This document shows positions 24,571 to 30,204 of a DNA stretch of 64,000 nt, piece after piece. Position numbers and translations under genes: made by a program. The first letter of the stretch is position 1. Each line of letters begins with the position of its first letter. The DNA is from Actinomycetota bacterium (lineage in GTDB: Bacteria > Actinomycetota > CADDZG01 > JAHWKV01). The stretch lies in assembly GCA_030447305.1 (NCBI GenBank), contig JAUJPC010000002.1, positions 314,815 to 378,814 on the forward strand, in the 5' to 3' direction. The notes beneath the pieces were generated by a model. That model worked only from the letters and a program-made list of their open reading frames with translations. It had not been told where the DNA came from and ran no database searches.

Positions 24571-24711
24571 TCAGTGGCAGCCTTCGTGACCACATCCACA
24601 GTCGTGGGCTTCGTGGCCTTCGTGTGAGCCGTGCTGCTGGCAGTAGTCGCTGCAGTATCCGTCTTCCCGAGCTTCGCACATGCAACCTTCGTGACCGCAT
24701 TGCTGAGCCAT
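24571..24711 (-). CDS. metallothionein-like Cys/His-rich protein (46 aa)
   Basis: MAQQCGHEGCMCEAREDGYCSDYCQQHGSHEGHEAHDCGCGHEGCH; 8 Cys, 7 His; RBS ggaggcagc. Confidence 0.75.
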   Translation of the reverse strand: MAQQCGHEGCMCEAREDGYCSDYCQQHGSHEGHEAHDCGCGHEGCH

Positions 24712-25768: not shown

Positions 25769-28405
25769 TCAGTCCCGCCTTCCGATGCCCTCGAGCAGTA
25801 TCTTCACCGCTTCCCGGGCGTACAACTCCTCATTGATCACGCCCTCCAGGTCACCGTTGGCGCCAAGTGCCTGCGCCGCCAGCGCGCCGATCAACAGCTG
25901 CGCCGCGTGCTCGGTGTTGCTGAGCTTCCCGATCCGGCCGAAGCGCTGCTCCAGTGTCAGATAGCCGCTGACGCGGGAGATGTCCAGGGCCGGCTCCCCG
26001 CTGGTATAGCCGTACCGGTAGTGATCATAGGTGGCCCTTGCCACCTCCTCGAGGTTGGACCGAACGTCGCCGTGTCCCGCCCTGAAAGGCAGATCCCTGA
26101 GGAGGGTGCCCAGCTCGGAAGGCGCCCGGTTTCCATCGGGGGAGGGAGGGTGCGAAGTGGCCGGGACCGCGGCCGGCGGCGCAAGCGCCGGCTCCAGATG
26201 GTCGGCCTCGGGGACGGGGCTGACGGCTGGCGCCTCCGGTTGCTCGGCGTCTTCGGACTCGATGTGGATCCTGGGAAGAACCCGGTCCAGCCACCGGGGG
26301 AGGTACCAGTTGGCCTCCCCCAGGAGCTCCATGGTGGCGGGCACCAGCACCATTCGGACGAGCGTGGCGTCGATCAGGACCGCTGCCGCCAACCCCAAGC
26401 CGATCAGCTTGGCGTTCGGGTTGGTGCCGAGAACGAACGAGAAGAACACCGTAACCATGATGGCCGCCGCGGCGGTGATGACCCGGGCGGTAGAAGCCAG
26501 CCCGTCGGCGACGGCTTGGGCGTTGTTGCGGGAACGGTCGTGCTCCTCCTTGATTCGGGACAGCAGGAAGACCTCGTAGTCCATCGACAGGCCGAACAGG
26601 ATGGCGAACAGCAGCATCGGGCTGAAGGCGGCGATTGGCCCGGTCCGGTCGACACCGATGTACTCGGCACCCCAGCCCCACTGGAACACCGCAACCAGGA
26701 CACCGAACGCCGCTGCGATCGCTATCACGTTCATGATCGCCGCCTTCAGCGGGACCAGGATGGAGCGGAAAGCTGCCATCAGCAGCAGGAAGCTGAGCAG
26801 GATGATGCCCCCGAAGAACCAGGGCAGCCGCTCGGTGAGCTTGTCGGTCAGGTCCACGCCGATTGCGGCCGCTCCTCCGGCATGCAGATCCAGACCGTCG
26901 CCGGCGGCGGGAGCGACGATGTCGTCCCTGAGGTGGTGCACCAGCTCGTCGGTCCTCTCGTCCTGAGGAGCGTACTTGCCGAATACCTGGATCACCGAAG
27001 CCGTGGGTCTCACCGGATCATTCGGGATTACCGGTGAGACGCCTGCGACGCCCGGGTCGGCGGCCAGCCGGGCGGCCAGTGCCTGCAACCTGGGCAACGC
27101 GGCGGGGGACTCGAAGCTGGCGGCCACCAAAAGGGGACCGTTCGAGCCGGGACCGAATGCCTCGGACAGCAGATCGTAGGCCCGGCGGCTGGTCAGTTCC
27201 GTAGGTCCGTTGCCTGCGTCCTGGTTGCCGAGCCGGATGCTGAACGCGGGAGCGGCCAGTGCTCCCAGGATGACCAGACAAGCAAAGGCCGAGATCAGCG
27301 GATGCCGCTGGATGGCGCGGCTCCACCGGTACCAGAATCCGGAATCCTTCGGTTTGGCAAGCTTGCCCTTACGCCGGAAATGGATGGACAGGCTGTCGAT
27401 GTGTCTTCCCACCAGGCTCATCAACGCAGGCAGAAGGGTTACAGAGGCGAGCATGGTCACGAGGACGGCGATACCCGCGCCCACGGCCAGGCCGTTCATG
27501 AACGACAGCTCCATCAGGAACATGCCCATCAGGCTGATGATCACCGTGACTCCGGCAAACAGCACCGCCCGGCCGGCGGTGGTCATCGCTTTGACGACGG
27601 CCTCCTCGGTCTCCATCCCGTCTATCAGGTTCTGCCGGTAACGGGTGACGATGAACAGGGCGTAGTCGATGCCCACCCCCAGACCGATCATCGCGGAGAC
27701 CAGCGGCGCAAAGGTCACCACGTCCATGTAAGCCGCGAGCAGAGTCAGCCCGGTGACGCCGATCCCCACGCCGAACAGCGCAGTGAAAATCGGCAGGCCC
27801 ATCGCCAGCACCGAGCCGAAGGAGACGAGCAGTATGAGCACCGCGGCGCCCAACCCGATGAGCTCGTTGCGGCCGAGCGGAGGGGCAAGCTCCTGGAAGG
27901 GCGGGCCCCCGTACTCGACGGTCAGCTTGTCGTCGGGCCTGACCGCCTCATTGACGGCTTCCTGGATCTCGTCGGATAGCTCGATCGGGAGCTCGGCGAA
28001 TCCCCGGTCGAACTGCAGCTCGGCGTACGCGATCCTGCCGGCGGATGGGCCGGCCGGCGCCACCTGACGTGCTCCCTCGGGAGTGTAGGGGCTGGTTAGA
28101 GAGACCAGATACTCGCCGGAGGCCCGCCGGGCGGCATCGAAGCCGGCCTCCATCCGCGCCCGAACCGCCTCGACGCCATCCTCGGCCCGGAAGACGATCT
28201 CGCCGGTGGTGCCGGCCCGGGCGGGCATCTTCTCCTCCAGGAGATCGAGGGTCTCCTGGGTTTCGGTTCCCGGAAGGCTGAAGTTGTTGTTGAGCTTGCC
28301 TCCCTGGGTCTCCGCGAGGATCACCGTGCCGGCAAGCAGCAGAATCCAGATGAGGAGCATCAGCCACTTGTGCCGGTAGCTGAACCGGGCGACACCTTCG
28401 AGCAC
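25769..28405 (-). CDS. MMPL/RND family transporter with long cytoplasmic C-terminal extension
   Basis: Two MMPL repeats (GLGVGIDYALFIVTRYR; GLSMDYEVFLLSRIKEEHDRS); RBS GGAGG before GTG 28405. Confidence 0.9.
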   Translation of the reverse strand: MLEGVARFSYRHKWLMLLIWILLLAGTVILAETQGGKLNNNFSLPGTETQETLDLLEEKMPARAGTTGEIVFRAEDGVEAVRARMEAGFDAARRASGEYLVSLTSPYTPEGARQVAPAGPSAGRIAYAELQFDRGFAELPIELSDEIQEAVNEAVRPDDKLTVEYGGPPFQELAPPLGRNELIGLGAAVLILLVSFGSVLAMGLPIFTALFGVGIGVTGLTLLAAYMDVVTFAPLVSAMIGLGVGIDYALFIVTRYRQNLIDGMETEEAVVKAMTTAGRAVLFAGVTVIISLMGMFLMELSFMNGLAVGAGIAVLVTMLASVTLLPALMSLVGRHIDSLSIHFRRKGKLAKPKDSGFWYRWSRAIQRHPLISAFACLVILGALAAPAFSIRLGNQDAGNGPTELTSRRAYDLLSEAFGPGSNGPLLVAASFESPAALPRLQALAARLAADPGVAGVSPVIPNDPVRPTASVIQVFGKYAPQDERTDELVHHLRDDIVAPAAGDGLDLHAGGAAAIGVDLTDKLTERLPWFFGGIILLSFLLLMAAFRSILVPLKAAIMNVIAIAAAFGVLVAVFQWGWGAEYIGVDRTGPIAAFSPMLLFAILFGLSMDYEVFLLSRIKEEHDRSRNNAQAVADGLASTARVITAAAAIMVTVFFSFVLGTNPNAKLIGLGLAAAVLIDATLVRMVLVPATMELLGEANWYLPRWLDRVLPRIHIESEDAEQPEAPAVSPVPEADHLEPALAPPAAVPATSHPPSPDGNRAPSELGTLLRDLPFRAGHGDVRSNLEEVARATYDHYRYGYTSGEPALDISRVSGYLTLEQRFGRIGKLSNTEHAAQLLIGALAAQALGANGDLEGVINEELYAREAVKILLEGIGRRD

Positions 28406-28526
28406 TTCTACCTCCGACACCGAGGAATGGGGCGAGCCTGGGGACTGGAAGCCGGGAACCCTATATCGCAACCATTATGGGTCGGAGGTAGAGGTCAGGG
28501 AACCGGTAATATCCCCGATGGCGGGG

Positions 28527-28970
28527 TCAGCTCCCGTGCTTCTCGTTGTGAACCTTGACGCCTTCCAGAAAGGTGTTCCAGCCCAAAAGGGCGCACTTGA
28601 TGCGCACGGGGTACTTCTGCACCCCCTGAAGCGCCACCAGGTCGCCCAGCGAGTCTTCGTCCTCGACGCTCTCGCCCTGCATCATCGCCTTGAAGGTGTT
28701 GGCCAGCTCCTCGGCCTCCGCAACAGGCAGACCCATCAGCTTCTCCGTCATCATCGACACCGATGCCTGGGAGATGGAGCAGCCGCGGCCCTCGAACCCG
28801 ACGTTGGTGACCTTGCCGTCCTCGATGTCGACGTACAGGTCGATCTCGTCGCCACACAGCGGGTTGTCCCGGTGCAGGTGAACGTCGGCTCCCTCGATCT
28901 TGGTCCGGTTACGTGGCGTCCGGTAGTGGTCGAGGATTACTTCCTTATACAGGTCTTCCAGGTCGCTCAA
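28527..28970 (-). CDS. sufU: SufU/NifU-like Fe-S assembly protein
   Basis: DLYKEVILDHYRTPRN, NPLCGDEIDLYV, GCSISQASVSMM; RBS AAGGAGG before TTG. Confidence 0.93.
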   Translation of the reverse strand: MSDLEDLYKEVILDHYRTPRNRTKIEGADVHLHRDNPLCGDEIDLYVDIEDGKVTNVGFEGRGCSISQASVSMMTEKLMGLPVAEAEELANTFKAMMQGESVEDEDSLGDLVALQGVQKYPVRIKCALLGWNTFLEGVKVHNEKHGS

Positions 28971-28983
28971 ACGGATGCCCTCC

Positions 28984-30204
28984 TTAACCGAACATCTCTC
29001 TGCAACTCTCCAGGGCGTCGACGAGGGCGTCAACATCGCTAGAGGTGTTGTAGATGTAGAAAGAAGCGCGATTGGTCGCGCTCACGCCAAGTTTACGCAT
29101 CAGCGGCTTTGCACAGTGGTGACCGGCGCGGATGGCCACTCCTTTTCCATCCATGATGGTCCCAACGTCGTGCGGATGAATATCGCCGATGTTGAACGAC
29201 ACCAGCCCGGCCTTGTTCTCAGCATTCTTGGGACCGTAGACGGTGATGTCCGGGATGGCCGCCAGCCGCTCCAGGGCATATCGGGTGATCTCAACCTCGT
29301 GGCGCCGGATGGCATCCCACCCGATCGCATTCAGGTAGTCGATGGCCGCGCCCAGCCCCACCGCCTGCGCAATAGGCGGAGTTCCGGCTTCGAACTTGTA
29401 GGGAATGTCGTTATAGGTGGAGTGATCGATCCACACGTCGAGGATCATGTCGCCGCCGCCATGGAAGGGCTCCATGTTCTCCAGGATCCGCTCCCGACCC
29501 CAGAGAAATCCGATGCCGGTCGGAGCACACATCTTGTGGCCGGTGCCTACGTAGAAATCGCAGTCCAGAGCGCCGACGTCGACCTCCATGTGCGGCAGGG
29601 CCTGAGCGCCGTCGCACACCACGATCGCTCCGACGTCGTGGGCCTTTGCAGCCATCTCGGCGATGGGGTTGATCGTCCCAAGCACGTTGGATACCTGCGT
29701 CACGGCTACAACCTTGGTCTTGTTGGACAGAAGCCGCTCGTACTCCTCCAGGTCCAGCGTTCCCTCTTCGGTCACGGGAACAGGCCGGATAACCGCTCCC
29801 GTGTCCTTGCACGCCAGCTGCCAGGAAACGATGTTGGAGTGGTGCTCCATCTCGGTGACCAGGACCTCGTCTCCGGGCACCAGATGGTGGCGGCCCCAGG
29901 CGTAAGCCACCAGGTTCAGCGCCTCGGTGGCCGACTTGGTAAAGACGACGCCCTTGGGGCTCGGAGCCTTGATGAGCTGGGCAACCTTGCTCCTGGCGCC
30001 TTCAAACAGGACGGTGGCCCGCTGACCCAGCGTGTGGACGGAGCGGTGGACGTTGGCGTTGTCCTCCTCGTAGAAACGCTTGACCTCATCGATCACGGCG
30101 AGAGGGCGCTGCGACGTGGCACCGTTGTCCAGGTACACCAGAGGGAAGCCATTGACCTGCTGATGAAGGACAGGAAAATCCTTGCGAATCGCTTCAGCGT
30201 CCAT
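28984..30204 (-). CDS. sufS: cysteine desulfurase SufS
   Basis: GTGHKMCAPTGIGFLWG PLP lysine motif, RAGHHCAKPLM. Confidence 0.95.
   Translation of the reverse strand: MDAEAIRKDFPVLHQQVNGFPLVYLDNGATSQRPLAVIDEVKRFYEEDNANVHRSVHTLGQRATVLFEGARSKVAQLIKAPSPKGVVFTKSATEALNLVAYAWGRHHLVPGDEVLVTEMEHHSNIVSWQLACKDTGAVIRPVPVTEEGTLDLEEYERLLSNKTKVVAVTQVSNVLGTINPIAEMAAKAHDVGAIVVCDGAQALPHMEVDVGALDCDFYVGTGHKMCAPTGIGFLWGRERILENMEPFHGGGDMILDVWIDHSTYNDIPYKFEAGTPPIAQAVGLGAAIDYLNAIGWDAIRRHEVEITRYALERLAAIPDITVYGPKNAENKAGLVSFNIGDIHPHDVGTIMDGKGVAIRAGHHCAKPLMRKLGVSATNRASFYIYNTSSDVDALVDALESCREMFG

Follow-up and report, generated by a model that had tools for sequence, protein, structure and literature searches.

Operons classically pair a TetR regulator with an efflux pump, and the regulator normally works on DNA. 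In the 64,000-nucleotide stretch of Actinomycetota DNA analyzed here (the window), a transporter gene encodes a pump that itself carries a piece of such a regulator. An earlier note, made from the sequence alone, had read the cytoplasmic tail of this MMPL transporter as the ligand-sensing half of a TetR protein without its helix-turn-helix (HTH), and the whole as an unusual fusion of a transporter with its own effector-sensing domain.

An MMPL transporter with an uninterrupted C-terminal tail

The gene (25769..28471, minus strand) encodes an MMPL transporter of the RND superfamily with a TetR-derived C-terminal tail, 900 aa long as called from a TTG start; the true start probably lies a little further downstream, since orthologues start at the residue aligned with ‘VLEGVARF’ (around residue 23). 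Both halves expected of an MMPL transporter are recognized by Pfam MMPL (PF03176), which matches residues 65-392 and a second stretch (E 1.1e-80), while scores against the NCBIfam equivalogs for MmpL3, ActII and HpnN all fall far below cut-off. The membrane core (26288..28399; residues 25-728) is followed by a poorly conserved, Pro/Ala-rich cytoplasmic linker of about 55 aa (26123..26287; residues 729-783) and then by the TetR C-domain-like tail of about 115 aa (25772..26122; residues 784-900), all on the minus strand. The frame from 28471 to 25769 is open end to end, tail included, with neither stop nor frameshift. The same fusion, with a core 80-82% identical, is present in two congeners (G002 and G003) that were assembled independently, so neither misassembly nor a frameshift can account for it; as the earlier reading presupposed, no TetR gene has been split off by a frameshift. 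In a third congener (G001) the contig ends just inside the tail.

Genes resembling sufS and sufU precede the MMPL gene on the same strand, both in the window (25769-30204, minus strand) and at a congener locus (L123, 4476-9182, minus strand). The window also holds an unlisted 46-aa Cys/His-rich, metallothionein-like ORF (24571-24711, minus strand; MAQQCGHEGCMCEAREDGYCSDYCQQHGSHEGHEAHDCGCGHEGCH), and a near-identical copy of it lies in the same neighborhood at L123.

Homology of the tail to TetR C-terminal domains

As a single sequence, the tail matches no family in Pfam, NCBIfam or the PDB, and the Pfam TetR_C models do not match it directly. A profile built from four transporter tails retrieves TetR regulators, with per-genome E-values up to 5.1e-22 (in G060, an unselected genome). 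The matches made outside the genus by the A2 profile, which consists of transporter tails alone with no TetR input, are to free-standing proteins about 200 aa long from other families, and always to residues ~65-200, i.e. the C-terminal half. In these proteins Pfam identifies TetR_N and, in the best case, also TetR_C_7 above cut-off. Alignment of 15 tails with five TetRs by hhalign gave a probability of 99.1% and an E-value of 1.4e-18 over 118 columns. Across 397 genomes of the phylum, searched by profile at E<=1e-4, a match was found in 25 genomes outside the genus; all 25 of the out-of-genus loci fetched encode the TetR HTH signature, and none encodes a transporter fusion. The tail aligns with TetRs only from the last part of helix 4 onward and thus has no HTH, and a Pfam scan of the four fused proteins from the window's genome found no TetR_N in any. 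By these profile comparisons the tail is truly homologous to the C-terminal domains of TetRs, and the resemblance to the C-terminal half of a TetR without the HTH, proposed earlier by eye, is borne out.

Carriers of the tail and their distribution

A search of the window's own genome (G000) with a 98-aa tail query recovered three paralogues, all of them C-termini of other transporters: a DrrA-type ABC ATPase (L008:4741-6276) and two DHA2-type MFS transporters, MFS-b (L009:4168-6561) and MFS-a (L010:5783-8206). The profile search of the same genome returned exactly these and the MMPL transporter, i.e. four tailed proteins, and all tailed proteins are drug-export-type transporters. The fusion is not peculiar to one MMPL transporter; the tail also sits on pumps of other superfamilies, three unrelated ones in total. 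Two weaker matches from the own-genome search are ascribed to chance, one inside a LOG-like ORF (L005) and one in an amine oxidase by Pfam (L006). Also rejected were a match to a ferritin-like protein (L116, E 0.0018) and an apparent 852-aa fusion in G150, where an MFS frame runs into a separate TetR across masked bases.

The three sampled congeners share the carrier set and add a third MFS type, MFS-c (L125, L126, L127), with not every type found everywhere. Complete tails number 15 in four genomes of the genus (4 MFS-a, 2 MFS-b, 3 MFS-c, 3 ABC and 3 MMPL). The fusion, sought in other genomes, thus recurs in all three congeners and in no genome sampled outside the genus, as judged by the profile over the 397 genomes of the phylum. 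A whole-MMPL scan of GTDB yielded 80 relatives, with the tail in 0/80, and scans of IMG/VR gave no match. A search of the open-access literature found no description of transporters that end in a TetR C-domain. As far as tested, the fusion architecture is new, as is its occurrence on pumps that are unrelated to each other; the parts (TetR C-domain, MMPL, MFS and ABC) are known.

Origin of the tail

In a tree that combines the 15 tails with 27 TetR C-domains, all tails lie on one side of a branch with 100/100 support, and among them each transporter type forms its own group. The simplest reading is that the domain arose once, was placed on five pump types ahead of the divergence of the genus and has been inherited vertically ever since. 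The ABC, MMPL and MFS cores lack homology to one another, so the domain must have been placed three times or more. Among non-fused TetRs, the best matches are those of G060, of family f47 (four genera plus a further pair of genomes) and of G225. The genes for these TetRs sit directly behind an MFS gene, usually overlapping it, and the MFS proteins end without a tail; they are 56-69% identical to the MFS-a core. At two loci (L175, L176) a DrrA-like ABC gene comes after the MFS-TetR pair. Since the nearest TetR lies directly behind an unfused MFS gene of such similarity to MFS-a, sequence relationships indicate that an MFS-TetR operon was probably the source of the tail. A TetR-family C-domain would have been captured once, shorn of its DNA-binding half, most likely from a tetR gene behind an MFS pump gene. 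Copying inside the genome would then have carried the captured domain to pumps of three or more unrelated superfamilies (MMPL, DrrA-type ABC ATPases and DHA2 MFS). Sister genera of the family yielded neither a close MMPL orthologue nor a tail.

Retained and lost segments of the domain

Helix segments were delimited with the TetR of L113 as a ruler, their limits being set by the alignment and by the general topology of TetRs rather than by a solved structure of this protein. Only the end of helix 4 remains in the tails. In the window (minus strand throughout), the equivalent of proximal TetR helix 5 (VRSNLEEVARATYDHYRY; 26012..26065) is followed by GYTSGEPAL (25985..26011), a short replacement for about 28 TetR residues comprising distal helix 5 and helix 6. 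The equivalents of helix 7 (25931..25984), with the signature GYLxLEQRFGRI, of helix 8 (25853..25915) and of helix 9 (25781..25831) come next, the last two corresponding to the first and second helices of the dimer four-helix bundle in TetRs (PMC6755732). Over all tails, proximal helix 5 and helices 7, 8 and 9 are retained, with an occupancy of 0.91-1.00 and 21-38% identity to TetRs. The stretch of 28 residues that spans distal helix 5 and helix 6 shows 44% occupancy and 8% identity to TetRs, being either missing or swapped for non-homologous low-complexity sequence. Helix 7 with its GYLxLEQRFGRI signature is the best-conserved stretch of the tail, ahead of helices 8-9; helix 8 contains more small residues in the tails than in TetRs, and helix 9 is only about 21% identical to its TetR counterparts. 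A poor AlphaFold model of the tail from a single sequence (mean pLDDT 42) places the helices roughly where expected. In MFS-a (L010, L117, L118, L119) a short conserved basic stretch (RLxYRRxxR-like) follows the tail, and this is not seen in other carriers.

TetR C-domains of efflux operons usually bind substrates of the pump. A tail that bound pump substrates in a remodelled pocket could switch or prime transport, each pump having its own sensor, and such a role would suit carriers that are all of drug-export type and a tail whose best-conserved part is helix 7, one of the pocket walls of TetRs. In MtrR, however, the drug pocket takes residues from every C-domain helix except 9 (PMC6755732), and the alignment reveals no complete effector pocket (helices 4-8) in the tails, which retain no more than the end of helix 4 and have either lost or exchanged distal helix 5 and helix 6. 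One domain is moreover common to pumps with presumably different substrates. We consider such ligand gating unlikely. Of the proposed fusion of a transporter to its own effector-sensing domain, the fusion stands, and the effector sensing, which in TetRs draws on the lost block, is not supported in the form proposed.

Constraint on the tail

Comparison of congeners gives 79-82% identity for the MMPL core, 35-45% for the gap-rich linker and 64-71% for the tail, in which pN/pS is ~0.33. For MMPL, ABC, MFS-a and MFS-c, pN/pS ranges over 0.12-0.27 in cores, 0.30-0.74 in linkers and 0.24-0.39 in tails, and it is lower in the tail than in the linker in every pair compared. Judged by these ratios, purifying selection is maintaining the tails. 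The constraint bears on whether the tail is a passive appendage that merely aids folding, stability or membrane distribution, or even a neutral read-through remnant. The loose and variable linkers would agree with this, as would tail-less orthologues of the transport cores, which are presumably functional. It becomes improbable in view of the selection acting on every tail type relative to its adjoining linker, of the five transporter types that have kept the tail since before the genus diverged, and of the three or more separate placements on unrelated pumps.

Regulator genes and operator-like sites near the tailed pumps

Two congeners (G002 and G003) encode, directly behind the fused MFS-a, a separate TetR that has a homologous C-domain. 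In both, MFS-a is preceded by an operator-like palindrome (TGAGTGAGCGCTCACTCA; TGAGTGAGCRCTCACTCA), as is the unfused MFS gene in several other lineages. Sites of TGAGTGAGCRCTCACTCA before an MFS gene are located at L010 ~8245 (G000:C2:16241-16258), L117 2186, L118 2077 and L113 1967, as well as at L174-L176, L178 and L179, and several of them adjoin a TTGACA promoter element. Around MFS-a, the TetR and palindrome of a TetR-controlled efflux operon are thus both present in G002 and G003; the window's genome has the operator only. The TetR is absent from the place behind MFS-a in the window's genome and in G001. No TetR gene adjoins the MMPL gene of the window, no operator-like palindrome was found before the MMPL or ABC genes, and 0/9 TetRs of the window's genome (98% complete) match the tail, though all four tails have been kept.

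Such neighbors could be accommodated if the tail paired through the shared C-domain with an intact TetR, kept it at the membrane and thereby coupled pump expression to pump abundance or activity. The TetR with a homologous C-domain behind the fused MFS-a and the palindrome before that gene in G002 and G003 speak for this arrangement, and the anti-repressor ArmZ, which controls the regulator MexZ by binding, offers a precedent (PMC3575510). Yet the window's genome has lost that TetR, has no other that matches and retains four tails, and the MMPL and ABC genes lack the palindrome. A sink for a regulator is accordingly a quite unlikely role for the tail.

Several further features of these loci were observed. 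The window's genome retains the palindrome TGAGTGAGCRCTCACTCA, the sole perfect match in that genome, despite the loss of the neighboring TetR gene. Its MFS-b has another inverted repeat, GTGAGCGGCGCTCAC, in the promoter region (L009, near 4168). A gene recognized by eye as MarR-like lies next to the DrrA-type ABC gene with the tail, in divergent orientation, in two genomes (L008 6356-6823, plus strand; L120 3134-3607, minus strand), and its presence in both suggests that the tailed ABC pump is controlled by MarR, not TetR.

A putative cytosolic pairing module

We tentatively favor, at slightly less than an even chance, a role for the tail as a cytosolic pairing module, homotypic or heterotypic, over one as an intact effector sensor. 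Pairing is preferred to a TetR-type pocket because helices 8-9 are kept while distal helix 5 and helix 6 are lost. The C-termini of MMPL pumps, DHA2 pumps and DrrA are cytosolic; all tails are therefore in the same compartment and could meet. In MtrR, the four-helix bundle of helices 8 and 9 is the dimer interface (PMC6755732), and both segments are present and alignable in the tails, whose own dimerization is a prediction from what is known of TetRs. Two pumps of one kind would be held together by their tails, or different pumps bearing the same tail would be paired. A tail more probably pairs with another tail than with a regulator dedicated to it, since no TetR of the window's genome matches the tail. 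The dimer interface may nevertheless not be kept, given the small residues of helix 8 and the low identity of helix 9, and the position of helix 7, rather than helices 8-9, as the most conserved stretch may point to another function. A broader role as a portable cytosolic tag, which would bring RND/MMPL, ABC and MFS pumps into a common assembly or control circuit, for example by heterotypic tail pairing, is possible and rather doubtful.

A TetR C-domain has here been relocated to the pump protein, and within one genome this has happened repeatedly, on pumps of unrelated mechanism. Should the tails act in pairing or sensing, a former repressor domain would control pump activity at the protein level, and unrelated pumps might be linked physically. 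Similar cases may be hidden elsewhere, because standard annotation misses the domain.

Comparison with known systems

The tail is most readily compared with TetRs that have an AefR-like C-domain (TetR_N with TetR_C_7/TetR_C_11; for example L113:3633-4241), to which the window tail aligns with 23-42% identity and with which it shares a homologous proximal helix 5 and helices 7-9. The genes of these regulators adjoin DHA2 MFS pumps. Unlike them, the tail lacks the HTH and distal helix 5/helix 6, is itself fused to pumps and is membrane-tethered. The transporter of the window resembles the MMPL/HAE3-type RND transporters of Actinomycetota (PF03176) in its full MMPL core and is 48-51% identical to same-order orthologues; in contrast to it, these (L189-L191) end some 20-60 residues past the core and are tail-less. 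The MFS-TetR(-DrrA) operons of other families in the phylum (L113, L174-L179, L181) contain the closest non-fused relative of the tail and an MFS protein close to MFS-a (56-69% identity). Their MFS and TetR are separate proteins, while pumps of the window's genus have the C-domain fused to them in addition. In MalK-MalT, a transporter component controls a regulator by binding. This system and ArmZ-MexZ offer a functional analogy only, and one that applies to the regulator sink; the tail described here descends from the regulator itself.
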